In this document: piece by piece, positions 40,477-49,469 of the stretch
Position numbering within the stretch: the stretch's first letter is position 1
Layout of the letters: every line of letters starts with the position of its first letter
Source: Micavibrio sp.
GTDB taxonomy: Bacteria > Pseudomonadota > Alphaproteobacteria > Micavibrionales > UBA9664
Length of the DNA stretch: 64,000 nt
Direction of reading: 5' to 3'
NCBI GenBank assembly: GCA_002699085.1
Contig: PAAR01000026.1
Span: 1 to 64,000 of the forward strand
The notes under the pieces: generated by a model
Told to the model about the DNA's origin: nothing
Seen by the model: only the letters and a program-made list of their open reading frames with translations
The model's database searches: none
Translations under genes and position numbers: made by a program

Positions 40477-40995
40477 ATGCGGATTTTACTTCTATCTCTT
40501 TTTCTTTTTGGCAGCCTCAGTACGCAAGCCTTTGCGGCCAAAACAGCCAGTAAAATCATCACAGGTGATGAGGCAGATAGAATGTTATCCAATGTTATTT
40601 CCATGCTAGCCAGCGGCGATAAAGAAACTTTAAAAGATTTCTTTGAAGATGATGCGACAAAGGATTTAAAAATAAACATTATAGGTGGCACTGGCGAGAA
40701 TGGTGAACCACTAACACTTTCTGCTAGAAATCTAAAATATAAAGATAAATTTGCGCCTATTTTCAATGGTGGCATGCCTTTTGGTGGCGAAACATTTGTC
40801 GCGAGAGATAACCGATCAGCAGCGGGACATTTTCAACTTTTAAGCTTTAATCAAAATTCAGGCGAGAATAAAATGACAAATATTCAGAGCAACTGCTCAT
40901 TTTCAATGATACTAGATAATGACTACATGCTAAGGCTCTCTAAACTTGAGTGCCGTGTTTCTGAGAAAACGATCAATCTCAGCGGCAGCCAGTAA
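40477..40995 (+). CDS. Exported hypothetical protein A
   Basis: A 172-residue secreted protein with a clear signal peptide (LLLSLFLFGSLSTQAFAA, cleavage after about residue 21). The mature part has a helical start (RMLSNVISMLASGDKETLKDFF) and a beta-rich rest with one cysteine pair (NCSFSMILDN...LECRVSE). It looks like a small alpha+beta fold similar in pattern to SnoaL/NTF2-type domains, but I cannot name a family. It follows nadC after 13 bases and resembles the protein at 41459-42043. Confidence 0.65.
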   Translation: MRILLLSLFLFGSLSTQAFAAKTASKIITGDEADRMLSNVISMLASGDKETLKDFFEDDATKDLKINIIGGTGENGEPLTLSARNLKYKDKFAPIFNGGMPFGGETFVARDNRSAAGHFQLLSFNQNSGENKMTNIQSNCSFSMILDNDYMLRLSKLECRVSEKTINLSGSQ

Positions 40996-41458: not shown

Positions 41459-42043
41459 GTGTCTTTAAAAACACTTTTTACCTTTATTTTTGTACTTTCA
41501 GCAACTGGCACGGCTTTTGCCCAAGAAACACTTACAGCTGGCAGTCTACGGACACATCTTTATACCGAAAATAGAATACTCCAAAGCATTCAGGGATCTA
41601 GTAACTTACAAGCAGTTCGAGACTTCATGCAAAAACATTTAACCGATAATTTTGTGTTTAAGGACTCTATCACATCTCATATGGGTAGCTATGGCAGCTC
41701 AAATGAAAATGTTGAATATAAGCGTGCCGATTATATTGATAGCATCATGTCTAATGCCGATGCTTTTAGCGGTGTTAAAAGCAATTTAGATATTAAAACC
41801 ATTGATATTTCCAGCGACGGCAAACGTGCCACAGTGGTTTATGATATGGATGCCCACTTCGACGCCAAAAACGAAGACCTTGCTCAACAAGGCAATGTAT
41901 CCGCTAATGCCTCCTTCGGTTTTCAGACAAATTCTGATTGCCGCGCAAATATGCTCATAAACCAAGAAAATATTATTCAAACAGAACGTCTGGTATGCAA
42001 AACAGATGCCTCAATGACATTACCAAAAGGTTTTGGCGAGTAA
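41459..42043 (+). CDS. Exported hypothetical protein B
   Basis: A 194-residue secreted protein with signal peptide LKTLFTFIFVLSATGTAFA. It starts at GTG 41459, with an ideal AAGGAG 7 bases before it. The mature part parallels exported protein A: a helix (RILQSIQGSSNLQAVRDFM), a DNFVFKDSI-like beta strand, and a C-terminal cysteine pair (SDCRANMLINQENIIQ...LVCKTD). The two are probably diverged duplicates, now separated by the DUF1761 gene. Likely periplasmic; no enzymatic motif seen. Confidence 0.65.
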   Translation: MSLKTLFTFIFVLSATGTAFAQETLTAGSLRTHLYTENRILQSIQGSSNLQAVRDFMQKHLTDNFVFKDSITSHMGSYGSSNENVEYKRADYIDSIMSNADAFSGVKSNLDIKTIDISSDGKRATVVYDMDAHFDAKNEDLAQQGNVSANASFGFQTNSDCRANMLINQENIIQTERLVCKTDASMTLPKGFGE

Positions 42044-42059: not shown

Positions 42060-42842
42060 TTAAGCCCGACGAGCAACCATAAGTTTCTTAATTTCACCAA
42101 TCGCTCTGGCTGGATTAAGGCCTTTAGGGCAGGTTTTTGTGCAGTTCATAATTGTATGACATCTATACAGACGGAATGGGTCTTCCAAAGCGTCTAAGCG
42201 TTCACCTGTTGCCTCATCACGGCTATCCGCCACCCAACGATAGGCCTGAAGCAATACCGCAGGGCCCAAGAAACGATCTGAGTTCCACCAATATGATGGG
42301 CATGATGTAGAACAGCAAAAACAAAGGATACAGGCCGATGCTTCATCAATGAGCTTTTGCTCTTCTGGTGATTGTAAACGCTCACGTGTTGGTGCTGTGG
42401 TCTGAGTCTTCATCCATGGTTCAATTGTTGTAAGCTGCGCATACACATGATTTAAATCTGGCACTAAATCTTTAACAACAGGCATATGCGGTAATGGATA
42501 GATATTAACCGTATCCCCTTTGCATTCATCAATCGGCTTCAAACACGCCAAAGTATTGGTACCGTCAATATTCATTGCACAAGAACCACAAATACCTTCA
42601 CGACAAGAACGACGGAATGTCAGTGTAGAATCAACTTCATTCTTAATTTTGATAACCGCATCAAGCACCATTGCGCCACAATCATCCATATCCAACTCAT
42701 ATGTATCAGTACGTGGATTTTCATCTGTGTCTGGAGACCAGCGATACACTTTGAATTTTTTGGTATTCTTAGCCCCTTTAGGCGCCTTATAGGTTTTACC
42801 CGCTTTTATCTTTGAATTCTTTGGTAAGCTAAACTCAGCCAT
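42060..42842 (-). CDS. sdhB: Succinate dehydrogenase iron-sulfur subunit
   Basis: A 260-residue subunit of complex II passing electrons from FAD to ubiquinone. All three cluster sets are present: [15 protein letters not shown] with a later Cys in TLAC ([2Fe-2S], residues about 80-105), [17 protein letters not shown] near 170 and [18 protein letters not shown] near 230 ([4Fe-4S] and [3Fe-4S]). The basic N-terminus ([19 protein letters not shown]) is an extension common in alphaproteobacteria. It is on the same strand as sdhCDA but 4 kb further on, separated by six unrelated genes. Confidence 0.97.
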
Positions 42843-42908
42843 CTATAAACACTCCATTTTCTACCTTATTAAGATAAGAGCTTTAATGTCCTTTGTGAAG
42901 GGAAAATA

Positions 42909-43877
42909 TCAGGGATTTTCTGGTTTTCTTCTGTCTGTGATCTTGCCATTGGTTGGCGTAGATTTTTTTACAGGAAATGTCTCACCGGTTTTAAAAGAAC
43001 GCCCAACAAATTTCTCCAGCCGTTTAATAGCTGTCTTATCCTTTGTATCAAAAAAACCTTCCCATGTTGTACTGACCATCATCAAACGCCCTAGCGGTAA
43101 CGCTTTTTGCTTCTTTAAATATGCAACAGCCTCAGCATTCATCTGGTAGCCATCTGCAAAACTATTCAGCACTTTATTCGTTAATCCACGACTCCTTAGA
43201 TCATATTTGAAATCTGAAAATTGCCAGATAATCTGTGGATTTTTGGAACGAGAAAATCTATATAACAAACGCTCAAGATCATCTTTTAAATCAACAGGAA
43301 GATATGGCTCGAGCATATCTATTCTTGCCGCCAACTGATCGCTTATTTTGTTATCATTTCGCCAATCATCTTCCTCACCCTCAAATTCTCTATATTTAAC
43401 AGCCATCAACGACCAAAAATGTCCTCCATTTACTGAGGATGGTATGATCTGGTTATCACGTATTTGTATTGCATCCATAAAGCGAAACATATCAAAAGCA
43501 TATTCTGCACCAAGTTTTTGTCCGCGATATGCTTCATCTACCACAATATTACCATGCGCCGATGTCCCATCTTCAATTGAGAAACTTCGCACATCTCTTA
43601 ATACCGTTTTTGAAGTTTCTTTATCAAACCAAAGAACCTCAAGAAAAGCGCCATGCGTATCACCACGAATTTCAACTTTTAACCTACAACTTTCAGGTAC
43701 ACTTCTTGAAAAATAACCAAGGATAGCTTCAACATCTATTGCAGCGCCGTTCTTATCTTTTAGAAATTTTGCACATTTTCGCCGCACCGCTTCAGGCGCA
43801 TAGCTACCATTCACGCTTAAGATATAGCGTTCGATGGTTTGCTCATTAAAAGCTTTTAATGCGAAAGACTTTTCCAT
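42909..43877 (-). CDS. GNAT-like acyltransferase-fold protein, paralogue 1
   Basis: A 322-residue protein that I do not recognise by name. The middle looks like a GNAT domain: NIVVDEAYRGQKLGAEYAF near residue 113 resembles motif A (R-x-x-G-x-G/A acetyl-CoA loop). Upstream strands LKVEIRGDTHGAFLEVLWF and LRDVRSFSIED precede it. A helical C-terminal half ends with IKRLEKFVGRSFKTGETF. The same layout, length and end motif occur in the protein at 45830-46798, so the two are diverged paralogues. ATG has GAGGAAG before it. Lies in the block separating sdhA and sdhB. Confidence 0.6.
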   Translation of the reverse strand: MEKSFALKAFNEQTIERYILSVNGSYAPEAVRRKCAKFLKDKNGAAIDVEAILGYFSRSVPESCRLKVEIRGDTHGAFLEVLWFDKETSKTVLRDVRSFSIEDGTSAHGNIVVDEAYRGQKLGAEYAFDMFRFMDAIQIRDNQIIPSSVNGGHFWSLMAVKYREFEGEEDDWRNDNKISDQLAARIDMLEPYLPVDLKDDLERLLYRFSRSKNPQIIWQFSDFKYDLRSRGLTNKVLNSFADGYQMNAEAVAYLKKQKALPLGRLMMVSTTWEGFFDTKDKTAIKRLEKFVGRSFKTGETFPVKKSTPTNGKITDRRKPENP

Positions 43878-43928
43878 CCCACTTCCTCGCTATCTTTATA
43901 GCAAAAAAGCGTTAAGATAATATGAAAA

Positions 43929-45248
43929 CTAAGAAAACATATCCTGTAGCTTCTGCCAAAACAGTCCTAGACTAGCTATAGCACTATCATAATGCCCTGC
44001 GCCCGGTATTACTTTTGCTTTCAACTCTGCCATAATATTTTTCGCATCCTTATGGACAATCATATCGGCGATAATTTTACCGCACATATGTGTCGGCACC
44101 ACACCATGCCCAGAATAACCAAAAGCATAATATATACGATCTTCTAAACCACCAACTTCTGGCATCTGAGTTGCGGTTAGACCTAGATAACCACCCCACC
44201 AATGGGTAACATAGGCGTTCTTTAATTGCGGAAAAATACAAACCATCTCCTGATATAATTTTTCAAAAGTATGGCGCTCCTCTTGTTTGTTCTTAAATAA
44301 AGCCGTATCTCCACCACCAAAAATAAGTCTGTTATCTTCTGTTTTAGCGAAATAGTTCAGTAAACGCCGCCATTCAAAACATGCGTAATTACATGATAAA
44401 ACTGTTTCCGCTACATTCGGCCTCAAAGGCTGTATGGCAAACATGGATGTCCGTGCCAATATATATTTTTTACGGGTCTCGGGAAATAACCATCCTTGAT
44501 AGGCATCTCCCGCTAAAACAATTTTTTGCGCCGTAACAACGCCCTCTGGAGTCTCTACCTCAATATAATCAGCTTGTTTATTGATCTTGAGGGCTGGAGT
44601 ATTTTCAAAAATCTTGAGACCTTTAGAAACCAAGTATTTTGCCAATAAATTAAGGTATTTAAGTGAATTAAAATGGCCGCCATTTAAGTCAACCAGTCCC
44701 CCTACATAAAACTCAGAGCCTATAGCATCTTTTGTTTCACCCGCATTTTTAAGAGCTAGATTTTCGCCACAACCAATTTTTTCTAAAAAAGATTTATATT
44801 CAGCCAAATCATCCGCTTTTTTTTCTGACGTGGCTGCTATAATAAGTCCTGATTTGAAGCTTGTTTCTTGCTCAATTTCTATAAATATCTGTTTAATGGT
44901 CGCAACAGCATCTAATGTTGCTTTATATAATGCAGCCGCTTTATCTTCGCCATACGCAGCCGCAGTTTCTCTAATATCCTTATTAAACCCAGGAATAATT
45001 TGTCCTGAATTTCGTCCAGAAGCCCCCCATCCCACACGATGGCGTTCAACGAGCGCAACATTTTTTTGGCCTGCCTTAATTAAATGATATGCCGTTGCTA
45101 GACCAGTAAAGCCAGCACCAATAATACATATCTCTGCTGATATATCCTCATGTAATGATGCGTATTTAATGCCATAATTTTTTTGATCTTTGTAAAGACA
45201 AATATCATCAGATAAAAATCTATCACGATTATGAACAAAGGTTCTCAT
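43929..45248 (-). CDS. FAD-dependent amine/amino acid oxidoreductase (DAO family)
   Basis: A 439-residue flavoprotein. The FAD Rossmann motif is ICIIGAGFTGLATAYHLIKAG near residue 40, followed by ALVERHRVGWGASGRNSGQI, the second family signature. The C-terminal WGGYLGLTATQMPEVGGL and YYAFGYSGHGVVPTHMCGKI complete the FAD pocket. The pattern is that of gamma-glutamylputrescine oxidase/OrdL-type enzymes that oxidise amines. Substrate not determinable here. It lies 51 bases upstream of GNAT-like paralogue 1 on the same strand, in the sdh-splitting block. Confidence 0.85.
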   Translation of the reverse strand: MRTFVHNRDRFLSDDICLYKDQKNYGIKYASLHEDISAEICIIGAGFTGLATAYHLIKAGQKNVALVERHRVGWGASGRNSGQIIPGFNKDIRETAAAYGEDKAAALYKATLDAVATIKQIFIEIEQETSFKSGLIIAATSEKKADDLAEYKSFLEKIGCGENLALKNAGETKDAIGSEFYVGGLVDLNGGHFNSLKYLNLLAKYLVSKGLKIFENTPALKINKQADYIEVETPEGVVTAQKIVLAGDAYQGWLFPETRKKYILARTSMFAIQPLRPNVAETVLSCNYACFEWRRLLNYFAKTEDNRLIFGGGDTALFKNKQEERHTFEKLYQEMVCIFPQLKNAYVTHWWGGYLGLTATQMPEVGGLEDRIYYAFGYSGHGVVPTHMCGKIIADMIVHKDAKNIMAELKAKVIPGAGHYDSAIASLGLFWQKLQDMFS

Positions 45249-45286
45249 TAAAAGATTCTAAGATAGTTTTTTAAACCCATAAAGCC

Positions 45287-45303
45287 TAATTTTCAAAATT
45301 AGA
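45287..45303. repeat. 17-bp perfect palindrome
   Basis: CTAATTTTCAAAATTAG is an exact inverted repeat around a central C. It lies 39 bases upstream of the FAD oxidoreductase start and 95 bases upstream of the two DUF2384-like genes, in their shared divergent control region. It could be an operator for a dimeric regulator of either transcript. AT-rich palindromes of this size may occur by chance. Confidence 0.35.
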
Positions 45304-45397
45304 TAATTAGTTATTTGCAGCGCAGCACATGATTTTCTTTCGTTTTCAAAATGGTTATGGCAAGAGAAAGACAACAACAACTTAATGAGGATTTAAT

Positions 45398-45622
45398 ATG
45401 GCATTTGATGGCGTAGCAATTAATCACCCAACCTTAGCATCTGAACGTGTCTTCAGCCTTGAAAGCATCGCAATAGCTAAACTTGGTGAAACAGAAGGCA
45501 AAGCATTTATGGACAGAAAATATGTCATTGCAGGCAATGAAACGCCTCGTCAAATGGCGCATAGAAGTCAATCTGGATACACCACAGCAAAGCATATGTT
45601 ATTTCCAAGTGGTGGTTGCTAA
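45398..45622 (+). CDS. Small DUF2384/MbcA-ParS-like protein 1
   Basis: A 74-residue protein whose pattern matches the toxin-binding C-terminal domain of Xre/MbcA/ParS antitoxins (DUF2384): AIAKLGETEGKAFMDRKYV, then GNETPRQMAHRSQSGY and TAKHML, i.e. ...G-E--A--F----G-TP--M---S-SG---A---L. There is no helix-turn-helix part in front. The ATG has TGAGGA upstream. Followed without gap by a second protein of the same type. The resemblance is by eye only; no RES- or other toxin gene is adjacent. Confidence 0.55.
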   Translation: MAFDGVAINHPTLASERVFSLESIAIAKLGETEGKAFMDRKYVIAGNETPRQMAHRSQSGYTTAKHMLFPSGGC

Positions 45623-45861
45623 TGCAAACGGATGACCAATTGGAAAAAGCCCGCATCATGCGTTTAAAATGTTTTGCCGCCAACAAATTTGGAGAAAAGA
45701 GAGCAACACAATTATTAAACCAGCCTTACGATAATTTTGATGGGGACACACCTATTGCGGCCGCATCAGAATCTGAAGAAGACCTTAATTTTGTCGTGCA
45801 ACAAATCAGCCAACCAAAAAAACTACGGCCTAGCGAAATGTCAGCTTGCCGTTTTGGCTAA
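45622..45861 (+). CDS. Small DUF2384/MbcA-ParS-like protein 2
   Basis: A 79-residue paralogue of the preceding protein: CFAANKFGEKRATQLLNQPY, then DGDTPIAAASESEEDL, with the same FG-E--A--LL----dG-TPi---S spacing. Its ATG overlaps the stop of protein 1 (TAATG), so they are translationally coupled; a TTG at 45616 is a less likely start. The last 32 bases overlap the end of GNAT-like paralogue 2 on the other strand. Function inferred only from the pattern. Confidence 0.55.
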   Translation: MQTDDQLEKARIMRLKCFAANKFGEKRATQLLNQPYDNFDGDTPIAAASESEEDLNFVVQQISQPKKLRPSEMSACRFG

Positions 45862-46798
45862 AATCTAACGGCTTCCCTGTTTGAAAACTGCGACGGCAAT
45901 AGCGTTCCAGTTCTCTTATTTGCTTAGCGTCATTAAAATCAAAGCTGCACTCAAAAGCCTCACAATATAATAAGACATCAACAAACCTTGTCGCTTGGGT
46001 TTTCAGTGCCATGCTTGATGCGGGGTATGTGTTTTCTCGCAAAGACCATCCAACAATCGCCGCTTCTAATTGCTCAGGCGTCGCATTCAGAGGTGCTGTC
46101 ATCTTCATAACATCCCACACACAATAAGGATTATTAACATCTAAGCCATCAATAATTTCCTGATATTTTTGCTGCGTCTCTTCGTCCAAATATGGCTTCA
46201 AGAAACTAAAACCAAAACTACAATGATGGATAAACGCTTCCGTTTCTGCCTTATTCTTTAATTTAAAACCCATTTTAGGCCATGTCAGCATGCCGTTTTC
46301 ATCTGCGGCTCTAATTTCACATGCTTTCAGTCCAAAACAGTAACCTAACCTTAACTGATTAAACATGATTAGGCGCCCCAAACCTATACGATGGTATAGA
46401 GGATCAACGACAAACTTTCCTTCATAAAGCTTCTTCCATATAAGTGAAAAAGTTCTTTCATCGTCGGCTATGCGTATACCTCTATAAATATCCTCTAATG
46501 AAAAACTTAAATGAAAAAGTCTTTCGGGGCTTTTATGAAGCCGCACTGTCATCGCTGTATAGTCTGGCAATTGGTCTGTCATAATACTCAATACTTCTTG
46601 ACCGCATATCCCAGTATCTTCCATACAAGATTGATTAACATCTACAACCTTTGTTAGAGTATGATTACTATAAGACAGATTATGGTCACCTATAATTAAT
46701 CGAGAACGTGAATAATCTGAGGCAAAGCAACCTTTCAGAAAACCCCTCAGCTTTCTAAAGCGTGTTAAAACATCTGCAGATTTTGGTACAGCCACCAT
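45830..46798 (-). CDS. GNAT-like acyltransferase-fold protein, paralogue 2
   Basis: A 322-residue protein with the same architecture as the one at 42909-43877. MTVRLHKSPERLFHLSF and RIADDERTFSL align with its strands; GKFVVDPLYHRIGLGRLIMF near residue 133 is a clearer GNAT motif A (HRIGLG), and ADENGMLTWPKMGFKL resembles motif B with the usual -GF-. A helical C-terminal half ends with IRELERYCRRSFQTGKPL, matching paralogue 1. Probably acylates or senses a small substrate; unknown. It starts 42 bases after the sdhA stop region, on the same strand as sdhA. Confidence 0.62.
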   Translation of the reverse strand: MVAVPKSADVLTRFRKLRGFLKGCFASDYSRSRLIIGDHNLSYSNHTLTKVVDVNQSCMEDTGICGQEVLSIMTDQLPDYTAMTVRLHKSPERLFHLSFSLEDIYRGIRIADDERTFSLIWKKLYEGKFVVDPLYHRIGLGRLIMFNQLRLGYCFGLKACEIRAADENGMLTWPKMGFKLKNKAETEAFIHHCSFGFSFLKPYLDEETQQKYQEIIDGLDVNNPYCVWDVMKMTAPLNATPEQLEAAIVGWSLRENTYPASSMALKTQATRFVDVLLYCEAFECSFDFNDAKQIRELERYCRRSFQTGKPLDFSQNGKLTFR

Positions 46799-46840
46799 GT
46801 AGAATAGCTATCCCAATGCTTAGATTATGTCAATGAAATT

Positions 46841-48637
46841 CTAATATACACGTTTCTTAGCAGGAAACACTTCAACTTCGTTAGTCAGTGTTTTCATTGA
46901 AACAGGACGATAATCAATTTTGGTTTTACCCTTCTCATCAATCCACATAACTGTATGTTTCATCCAATTTTTGTCATCACGGTCTGGGTGATCTTCCTGC
47001 GCATGGGCACCACGCGATTCTTTGCGATTTTCTGCCGATGTCATGGTCACCACAGCTTGTGAAAGAAGATTATCCAGCTCAAGCGTTTCCACAAGGTCAG
47101 AATTCCAAATCATTGATTTATCGTTCACAACCAAGTCGCCCTTACCTGCATAGACTTTATTAATTTTCTTCACACCGTCAGCCAATGATTTATCAGTACG
47201 GAATACAGCAGCATGGTTTTGCATTGTTTTCTGCATCTCCAAACGTAGCTCCGCAGGGTTTGTTTTACCCTTATTATGACGGAAGTAATCAAGACGATCC
47301 AAAGCCTTCTCGCCCTTATCATTACCTAGGCTTTTATGAGATGCTTCTTTATCAATTGTGGCAGCACATTGTTTAGCTGCTGCACGACCAAATACAACCA
47401 AATCAAGTAAAGAGTTAGAGCCTAAACGGTTTGCACCATGGACAGACACACAAGCCGCCTCACCAATTGTCATTAAACCTGGAACAATCTTGTTCTTATC
47501 TTTAGCGGACTGGTTAATCACTTCTGCGTGATAATTTGTCGGCACACCACCCATATTGTAATGCACTGTTGGCAATACAGGGATTGGTTGTTTTGTCACA
47601 TCAACACCCGCAAAAACACGTGCTGATTCAGCAATACCTGGTAAACGCTCATGGATAATCGCAGGGTCTAAATGCTGCAAATTAAGGTGAATATGGTCTT
47701 TATCTTTACCCACACCACGGCCTTCATTAATTTCAATCGTCATAGAACGAGACACAACATCACGAGAGGCTAAATCTTTTGCTGATGGTGCATAACGCTC
47801 CATAAAGCGTTCACCTTCCGAGTTAGTCAAATAACCGCCCTCACCACGTACGCCTTCTGTAATCAAACAGCCCGCACCGTAGATGCCTGTTGGGTGAAAC
47901 TGGACAAACTCCATGTCCTGAAGACCAATACCAGCACGTGCCGCCATCGCATTCCCATCGCCTGTACATGTATGTGCCGATGTACAAGAAAAATACGCAC
48001 GGCCATAACCGCCTGTTGCCAATATAGTTTGCTTACCACGGAAACGGTGAATGGTCCCATCATCAAGATTCCACGCCATTACACCAAGGCATTCGCCCTC
48101 ATCCGACATAATCAAATCAAGCACGAAATATTCAATAAAAAACTCTGCTGAATGCTTCAATGCTTGTTGGTAAAGCGTATGGAGAATTGCATGACCAGTA
48201 CGGTCAGCCGCCGCACAAGTGCGTTGTGCTGTGCCTTTACCGTATTCTGTGGTCATACCGCCAAATGGACGTTGGTAAATCTTGCCTGCTGCTGTACGGC
48301 TAAATGGCACGCCGTAATGCTCAAGCTCAATAATCGCTGGAATCGCTTCACGACACATATACTCAATCGCATCTTGGTCACCCAACCAATCCGACCCCTT
48401 TACCGTGTCATACATATGATAACGCCAATCATCATCGCCCATATTACCTAAAGCCGCCGAGATACCACCCTGCGCTGCAACCGTATGAGAACGTGTTGGG
48501 AATACTTTTGTGATACACGCTGTCCGCAACCCTTCTTCAGCACAACCGAATGTTGCACGAAGCCCAGCACCACCACCGCCAACGACGACGACATCATATT
48601 CATGGTCAATAATTTCGTATGATTTATAATTTTTCAT
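46841..48637 (-). CDS. sdhA: Succinate dehydrogenase flavoprotein subunit
   Basis: A 598-residue subunit oxidising succinate to fumarate. FAD motif [20 protein letters not shown] near residue 18, [17 protein letters not shown] near 50 with the histidine that carries covalent [23 protein letters not shown] near 245 with active-site His/Arg, and [16 protein letters not shown] near 360 are visible. The C-terminal [19 protein letters not shown] is typical. Follows sdhD after 17 bases; sdhB does not follow. Confidence 0.98.
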
Positions 48638-48654: not shown

Positions 48655-49059
48655 TTATAGACCAAATGATATTTTTAAAATTGAGAAGATACAGGCAACG
48701 CCTGCCGCAAAGAAAGTCAGTTTCATGCCGATCATTTTCACCATCTTGAACGCCTCATTATGAATGTAATCCTCAACCACAACCTGACAGCCTAAATAGG
48801 CATGATATAAAACTGAAATCGTAAACAGGATAAGTAAAATCGCATTTAAGGGCGCTTGTAACCATGTTGTGAATGTCACGTAATCGAGCGCAACACCATT
48901 AAGTAATGAGTAAACAAACCACACCACCAATATCAGCGTAGATACCGACGTTACACGTTGTGCCATCCAATGCTCGACACCATCTTTAGCCGATCCAAGT
49001 CCCCGTGCACGGGCGACATTAGATTTCAAACCACCCTTTTCCCATTTTAATAAACTCAT
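48655..49059 (-). CDS. sdhD: Succinate dehydrogenase membrane anchor subunit SdhD
   Basis: A 134-residue membrane subunit with three helices. KSNVARARGLGSAKDGVEHW is the alphaproteobacterial N-terminal signature; AQRVTSVSTLILVVWFVYSL, LQAPLNAILLILFTISVLYHAYLG with the haem-region His, and VEDYIHNEAFKM follow. The ATG at 49059 has AGGAG 7 bases upstream and overlaps the sdhC stop as ATGA, so it is preferred over a start at 49086. It anchors SdhAB and binds ubiquinone. Confidence 0.93.
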   Translation of the reverse strand: MSLLKWEKGGLKSNVARARGLGSAKDGVEHWMAQRVTSVSTLILVVWFVYSLLNGVALDYVTFTTWLQAPLNAILLILFTISVLYHAYLGCQVVVEDYIHNEAFKMVKMIGMKLTFFAAGVACIFSILKISFGL

Positions 49060-49469
49060 AACGTAACTCCTAAGATGCAGCACCACATAGCCGCCGTTAA
49101 GCCGATTGACACCAGCAACACTAAATAGCCGGCATTACGTGCACAGTTAATCTCAAATAAATGGCCTGTATCCCAAACCAAGTGGCGGATACCATTACAA
49201 AGATGGAAAAATAACCCAAAGCTACCCGCAATCATAATAACTAAACCAAGTTTAGTAGAAGCCATTTCAACGAAGTATGCATAAGCCTTTGGTCCAGTTG
49301 CCGCTGCAATAACCATCCAGACAAATGCCGCCAGTACCACCGTTAAACCAACACCCGTTATACGATGTAGAATGGATAACATAGATGTCATCTGTGGTTT
49401 GTAAACTTGAAGATGCGGCGAAAGCGGTCTTTCTGGCCGTGTATTTTGTGTAGATGTTTTTTTACTCAT
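49056..49469 (-). CDS. sdhC: Succinate dehydrogenase cytochrome b556 subunit SdhC
   Basis: A 137-residue membrane subunit with three helices. RPLSPHLQVYKPQMTSMLSILHRITGVGL (SPHLQVY and SILHRITG are the family signatures) is at residues 14-42, and HLCNGIRHLVWDTGHLFE near 95 contains the haem b ligand histidine and the quinone-site neighbours. First gene of sdhC-sdhD-sdhA, divergent from guaA with 100 bases between them, which must hold both promoters. Confidence 0.95.
   Translation of the reverse strand: MSKKTSTQNTRPERPLSPHLQVYKPQMTSMLSILHRITGVGLTVVLAAFVWMVIAAATGPKAYAYFVEMASTKLGLVIMIAGSFGLFFHLCNGIRHLVWDTGHLFEINCARNAGYLVLLVSIGLTAAMWCCILGVTL

Follow-up and report, generated by a model that had tools for sequence, protein, structure and literature searches.

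The subunits of succinate dehydrogenase have to be kept in step, and the sdh genes are among the textbook operons; operon disintegration and the insertion of genes into operons are in turn general evolutionary processes. Here, we analyze the sdh locus in positions 1 to 64,000 of contig PAAR01000026.1 (a stretch of 64,000 nucleotides, hereafter the window) from Micavibrio sp., a marine predatory-type bacterium of the order Micavibrionales. This locus shares with the canonical alphaproteobacterial sdhCDAB operon its four genes, their order, their strand, and the presence of one copy of each, but differs from it in that sdhA and sdhB are separated by 4.0 kb containing opposite-strand genes, and in that sdhB has a promoter-like motif of its own. 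We consider it likely that this layout reflects a lineage-wide loosening of the sdhA–sdhB junction, in which cargo genes turn over in the gap and sdhB would form its own transcription unit, read from the motif.

The sdhA–sdhB junction across Micavibrionales

We located sdhA and sdhB in 142 Micavibrionales genomes, defining the pair as near when both genes lie on one contig, on the same strand, and within 12 kb of each other, and as adjacent when they are <200 bp apart. The pair is near in 95 genomes, of which 63 are split (gaps of 342–7416 bp) and 32 adjacent, and in 31 further genomes of the order the two genes are far apart or on different contigs. Outside the order, a gap of ≥300 bp was found in 12 of 104 evenly drawn Alphaproteobacteria (Fisher p = 4e-16 for the order against the rest of the class, a value that overstates the certainty as the genomes are related). 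The original prediction, made from the window alone, had told of genes inserted into one operon, a story that would sit badly with most relatives being spaced in the same way. Spacing is indeed the majority state among the near pairs, but the genes in the gap differ from one locus to another, and the content keeps changing.

The opening is concentrated at this one junction. Among 80 fetched loci, a set enriched for splits, gaps of ≥300 bp occur at 60/78 sdhA–sdhB junctions, compared to 12/74 for sdhD–sdhA, 1/73 for sdhC–sdhD, and 3/33 for nadA–nadC. The sdhD–sdhA openings, which include several loci of family f3 (e.g., L091, L097, and L106), are mostly found where the sdhA–sdhB junction is open too. 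In genomes G036, G049, G119, and others, sdhB has lost its link to sdhCDA altogether, lying on a different contig or at a distance of >20 kb; in G036 the detached gene remains beside nadC–nadA. Most relatives, including G000, are multi-contig assemblies, and an assembly or binning artifact might be suspected on this ground; we regard its probability as practically negligible, since the block in the window lies inside one contig, an independent metagenome-assembled genome from the same genus has the same layout, and the split is also present in the single-contig genomes G071, G072, and G080.

The gaps hold 166 open reading frames (called mechanically) in 97 sequence clusters, and the block in the window is one of many cargoes at a loose sdhA–sdhB junction. 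In 38 of 59 split loci, at least one cargo gene reads against the operon direction, and in 26 of these 59 the gene beside sdhB is directed away from it; sdhB is thus unlikely to be reached at such loci by transcription from sdhC alone. We scanned ten proteins for families, comprising nine encoded in the gaps of other genera and one small protein from the genus-mate described below, and obtained matches to aldo/keto reductase, GGDEF, MBOAT, SIS, Iso_dh (isocitrate/isopropylmalate dehydrogenase-like), 2OG-Fe(II) oxygenase, GT9 (glycosyltransferase), and HAD. Two kinds of cargo recur: an opposite-strand aldo/keto reductase gene next to or near sdhB in genera g7, g20, g40, g43, and g47, to which g25 can be added by position, and GGDEF genes, the tree of which has branches too long to separate shared ancestry from repeated entry. 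Overall, the cargo appears to be tolerated, with no functional link to succinate dehydrogenase. Because our literature search had partial coverage, its failure to turn up any account of sdh operon splitting in Micavibrio is weak evidence that the arrangement is novel.

A promoter-like motif upstream of sdhB and the history of the split

A shared sequence, CTTCAC(A/T)-N17-TATYYT, lies 22–79 bp upstream of the sdhB ATG in many split loci. It emerged from a comparison of sdhB upstream regions, in the form TTCACA-N17-TANNNT; the second box is mostly TATYYT, and the preceding C is invariant in one representative from each of 16 genera. The exact motif is present in 27 of 61 split loci, in none of 38 adjacent ones, and never upstream of sdhC, sdhA, or sdhD, with 27 of its 32 occurrences in ∼1.3 Mb of loci falling at sdhB. 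The relaxed form (TTCAC[AT]) is found in 30/61 split and 1/38 adjacent loci, compared to 28 of 20,000 random 150-bp windows. The motif was defined on near-split loci, and 13 genomes of a held-out set of 16, all with sdhB distant from sdhA or on a different contig, carry it as well. Among 20 sdhB genes from other Alphaproteobacteria, picked where possible for a gap or separation, none has the motif (one of these controls, G222, appears to be a contig end at which sdhA is adjacent). In the window, TTCACA-N17-TATCTT spans positions 42899–42871 and lies 28 bp before the sdhB ATG, with no further TATYYT form elsewhere in the 64 kb; the genus-mate has identical boxes with a largely different 17-bp spacer.

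The motif resembles a promoter of the sigma-70 type in which the third −35 position is a C. Its distance to the ATG is variable, which is better explained by a promoter than by a leader structure. From the cross-genome comparison we infer that the motif functions as a promoter, that sdhB in Micavibrionales probably has a promoter of its own, and that sdhB would be made as a separate transcript. A general sigma-70 scan of 9 kb had been considered as promoter support and was rejected (18 matches vs 24.6 in shuffles), such that the claim was revived only by comparison across genomes. It is conceivable, but in our view unlikely, that a dedicated lineage-specific promoter class makes sdhB independently regulated, apart from the flavoprotein and membrane subunits, perhaps through its own sigma factor or regulator; complex II assembly would then be set by SdhB supply, for example in the attack as opposed to the attachment phases of predation.

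Turning to the history of the split, a tree of sdhA and sdhB combined requires at least 17 state changes and contains 26 separate wholly split clades, with 16 changes on the sdhA tree and 21 on the sdhB tree; given these two counts, the split state has not obviously moved with sdhB by lateral exchange. Lateral spread of a cassette of sdhB plus promoter was likewise rejected, as the sdhB tree is not grouped by split state. The change can be seen among close species: G125 (L081 7618–8219), G126 (L134), and G127 (L175) have sdhA–sdhB gaps of 602, 2, and 170 bp, respectively. The G126 junction is a TAATG overlap, and the near-identical G125 carries a 602-bp insertion there, beginning with the GC-rich palindrome GTCATCCCGGCGAAAGCCGGGATCCA.

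These comparisons fit either repeated openings or a single old opening that was later re-closed in places, with the tight junctions favoring the first and the motif and aldo/keto reductase favoring the second. If the second holds, the ancestor of families f1, f3, and f7 would have undergone a single old event that took sdhB and its promoter away from sdhA; those f3 genomes in which the two genes are adjacent would be re-closures, and cargo would have turned over in a space that was already open. This scenario, which concerns history and is compatible with our account of how the locus works at present, is one we consider possible, if somewhat doubtful. The non-consensus CTTCACA-N17-TATYYT is found in at least 16 genera of f1, f3, and f7 and hardly elsewhere, the aldo/keto reductase gene has the same orientation and place in six genera, and an adjacent genome, G129 (83-bp gap), still has the relaxed motif. 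However, many adjacent f3 junctions are very tight (TAATG in G126 and 2–29 bp elsewhere), and would be hard to regain via random deletion, while the 602-bp difference between G125 and G126 shows a recent opening or closing.

Several observations count against a general loosening with an independently transcribed sdhB, and need to be taken into account. The motif is missing from roughly half of the near-split loci, among them G071, G072 (gap of 2.0 kb), and all loci of family f2. In the window, the oxidase, GNAT-like 1, and sdhB genes lie on the same strand with short gaps, and a promoter upstream of them could serve sdhB too. Our counts are phylogenetically non-independent, and the number of state changes (16–21) varies with the gene tree used. 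Finally, the orthologous-looking aldo/keto reductase in six genera and the motif in many suggest that the openness stems partly from one old event, followed by re-closure.

The block in the window and its counterpart in the genus-mate

In the window, the locus reads sdhC–sdhD–sdhA, then a 4.0-kb block (gap of 4001 bp), and then sdhB, with the four sdh genes all on the minus strand. All four subunit genes are present, with their identities set by NCBIfam models, and the features are as follows (E-values in parentheses).

49056..49469, minus strand: sdhC, cytochrome b556 subunit (TIGR02970, 1.2e-33)
48655..49086, minus strand: sdhD, membrane anchor (TIGR02968, 1.4e-23)
46841..48637, minus strand: sdhA, flavoprotein subunit (TIGR01816, 1.7e-290)
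45830..46798, minus strand: GNAT-like protein 2 (322 amino acids), adjoining sdhA; genus-mate orthologue in the same position
45622..45861, plus strand: mini-gene m2 (79 amino acids); weak likeness to the MbcA/ParS C-terminal domain
45398..45622, plus strand: mini-gene m1 (74 amino acids); tandem paralogue of m2
45303..45369, no strand assigned: conserved segment in the intergenic space that separates the mini-genes from the minus-strand genes, a putative promoter or regulatory region; 67-bp genus-mate match
43929..45248, minus strand: flavin adenine dinucleotide (FAD)-dependent amine oxidase of PuuB/glycine-oxidase type (439 amino acids; Pfam DAO, 4.4e-58)
42909..43877, minus strand: GNAT-like protein 1 (322 amino acids), adjoining sdhB; paralogue of GNAT-like 2
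42871..42899, minus strand: putative sdhB promoter, TTCACA-N17-TATCTT (cross-genome motif comparison)
42060..42842, minus strand: sdhB, iron–sulfur subunit (260 amino acids; NF004616, 2.7e-110)

The original prediction had the gene order and coordinates right, and the map bears out its central observation that sdhB is uncoupled from sdhCDA: sdhA and sdhB are not adjacent, and the two plus-strand mini-genes lie in the gap between them. Cysteine motifs are visible in the sdhB translation. The gene is single-copy in the window's genome (1.89 Mb, 31 contigs, 97% complete), and a second intact sdhB was looked for elsewhere in that genome and not found. The spacings are short, at 42 bp from sdhA to GNAT-like 2, 51 bp from the oxidase gene to GNAT-like 1, and 66 bp from GNAT-like 1 to sdhB. 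No RNA families were found near the locus, and a reading of the block as anti-phage defense was dropped after the models gave one spurious weak FAD match. Between nadC and sdhB, the window also encodes two proteins (40477–40995 and 41459–42043) with signal-peptide-like starts and without a Pfam match, which are ∼33% identical to their genus-mate counterparts, compared to 90% for sdhB; their position is kept while they evolve fast.

The genus-mate, G001 (Micavibrio sp. metagenome-assembled genome SAT33, PALX01000016.1, 90% complete; locus L032), has sdhA and sdhB 90–92% identical to those of the window and a gap of 3.58 kb, which holds three GNAT-like paralogues and one plus-strand mini-gene, homologous to m2 and on the same strand. 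The oxidase is absent from this gap and was not found in the 90%-complete genome. The GNAT-like gene next to sdhA is orthologous in both species (48% identity to L032:10495–11478, tree support 100/100), whereas the copies next to sdhB group weakly (84/82). Furthermore, the intergenic segment at 45303–45369 is an ungapped 67-bp match to L032 10053–10119, with a score of 35 vs a shuffle maximum of 25.5. Since the genus-mate has the GNAT array, the mini-gene, and this segment, the block predates the parting of the two species, and since it has the array without the oxidase, the oxidase is the later or more labile part, either added to an existing array or lost from the sister. The suggestion that the block had grown by duplication around the oxidase is therefore not supported.

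These data also bear on the recent horizontal insertion of a single 4-kb island into an intact operon of this lineage, as first proposed. The large block genes are slightly lower in guanine–cytosine content (0.385–0.394, vs a window mean of 0.42), and the sole close relative of the oxidase is in another family of the order. The genes beyond sdhB are, however, equally low (0.37–0.39), no direct repeats stand out at the block boundaries, where they had been proposed as a check, and neither flanking repeats nor an integrase or transposase, the marks of a mobile genomic island, were found. Taking into account that the GNAT/mini-gene layout and the intergenic segment are common to the genus-mate, which contradicts a recent arrival of the whole block, we consider such an insertion very improbable; the oxidase by itself may nonetheless have arrived in this way.

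The two GNAT-like genes are paralogues, as originally proposed (23% identity over 225 amino acids, E = 3e-10). Neither protein alone has a Pfam match, and 4 of 18 members of their family match Pfam GNAT domains (best 3.4e-5). An AlphaFold model of GNAT-like 2 from 18 homologues (pLDDT, the predicted local distance difference test score, of 82) combines a GNAT core with a C-terminal part that is mainly helical, and in Foldseek comparison with the PDB it matches GNAT structures with a probability of 1.00 over ∼90 columns, SpeG being among the matches (best E 8e-4). For the predicted model, these matches establish the GNAT fold, not the substrate. The family shares with the GNAT superfamily a predicted core and weak Pfam matches, and differs from it in being unnamed, in its ∼130-residue mainly helical C-terminal extension, and in the lack of a dedicated Pfam family. 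One glycine of the putative coenzyme A loop (G141) is invariant across its members. When compared with predicted viral proteins, the GNAT-like 2 model (45833–46798) aligns over 270–290 columns with large proteins of uncultured Caudovirales (best E 2e-7), exceeding in length all PDB matches listed; the C-terminal portion may represent a domain shared with phages.

Family members are present in 11 of 142 Micavibrionales genomes, and inside the sdh gap only in the window's genus (a contig search with the two GNAT orthologues matched the genus-mate alone); elsewhere in the order they sit in unrelated contexts. Arrays occur there too, with four tandem paralogues beside phospholipid-biosynthesis-like genes at G007:C21:345718–349206 (loci L055, L063, L065, and L066). 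In genus g3 (L054, L138, L142, and L144), a member occupies a conserved spot beside a heptosyltransferase-like gene, and in three of these four loci a peptide-binding-protein-like gene is found nearby as well.

The oxidase is a DAO-fold FAD enzyme, 31% identical to Escherichia coli PuuB over 422 amino acids and thus over its whole length (E = 2e-67). It shares with PuuB and glycine oxidase this full-length similarity and a Rossmann FAD motif, as expected of a PuuB-type γ-glutamylputrescine oxidase, and differs in its modest identity and the lack of polyamine-degradation neighbors. Among the searched genomes of the order, one relative was found at 50% identity, beside hslU–hslV in G018, and 385 genomes of the class contained none at E ≤ 1e-90. 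No puuA, puuC, or puuD was found in the block or beside the G018 relative, the rest of the genome not having been searched. A link from the oxidase to succinate through putrescine breakdown is possible but unsupported.

This brings up the possibility that the block contributes functionally to the sdh locus, in which the GNAT-like proteins and the oxidase would act on amines degraded to succinate, as in the Puu putrescine route, and would be kept between sdhA and sdhB for coregulation. We consider this improbable. While the PuuB likeness spans the entire oxidase, the best PDB match of the GNAT core is to the polyamine acetyltransferases SpeG, and the GNAT-like genes share the sdh strand with spacings of 42–66 bp to sdhA and sdhB, the match to SpeG extends over 91 columns at marginal E-values, and any GNAT might give the same result. 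In addition, the genus-mate lacks the oxidase, the GNAT family lies in unrelated contexts elsewhere in the order, and the nearest oxidase relative does not lie beside polyamine genes.

The mini-genes had been described as a divergent pair with DUF2384 likeness. They are instead a codirectional tandem, overlapping as TAATG on the same strand with 26% identity, and the 3′ end of m2 overlaps that of GNAT-like 2. The likeness itself is weak: m2 shares a short stretch of similar pattern with the MbcA/ParS-type antitoxin C-terminal domain (Xre_MbcA_ParS_C, DUF2384-like; E = 0.032, 14.6 bits vs a cut-off of 24.5), and m1 lacks it. The mini-genes thus fall short of a DUF2384 antitoxin domain. They also differ from such antitoxins in being <80 amino acids long and in having no RES-domain partner, with no RES match in any neighbor scanned. 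We therefore rejected a reading of the mini-genes as a type II toxin–antitoxin system of the RES-Xre/MbcTA kind.

Comparison with operon disintegration

In the course of events that we favor, the sdhA–sdhB link would have loosened in Micavibrionales, with genes entering and leaving the gap and sdhC–sdhD–sdhA staying mostly intact. In the window's genus, the gap would have been filled, before the two species parted, by fast-diverging GNAT-like paralogues and an opposite-strand small protein, with the PuuB-like oxidase joining this array later or being lost from the sister. At present, sdhB would be transcribed separately from CTTCACA-N17-TATCTT just upstream, and possibly also from the run of oxidase, GNAT-like 1, and sdhB genes.

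With the same junction opened repeatedly, its neighbors mostly shut, and the detached gene carrying a promoter-like sequence, these genomes form a series of natural experiments on operon break-up, which poses the questions of when the promoter appears, whether this is before or after the break, and whether subunit balance changes. Split and adjacent pairs of close species, such as G125 and G126, make operon break-up directly testable. As in operon disintegration generally, the subunits of one complex have become separately placed, new genes have entered, and the separated gene appears to have gained a promoter; unlike the general process, however, it is here one junction, of one operon, in one order, that has been affected many times, with a shared non-consensus promoter-like sequence.

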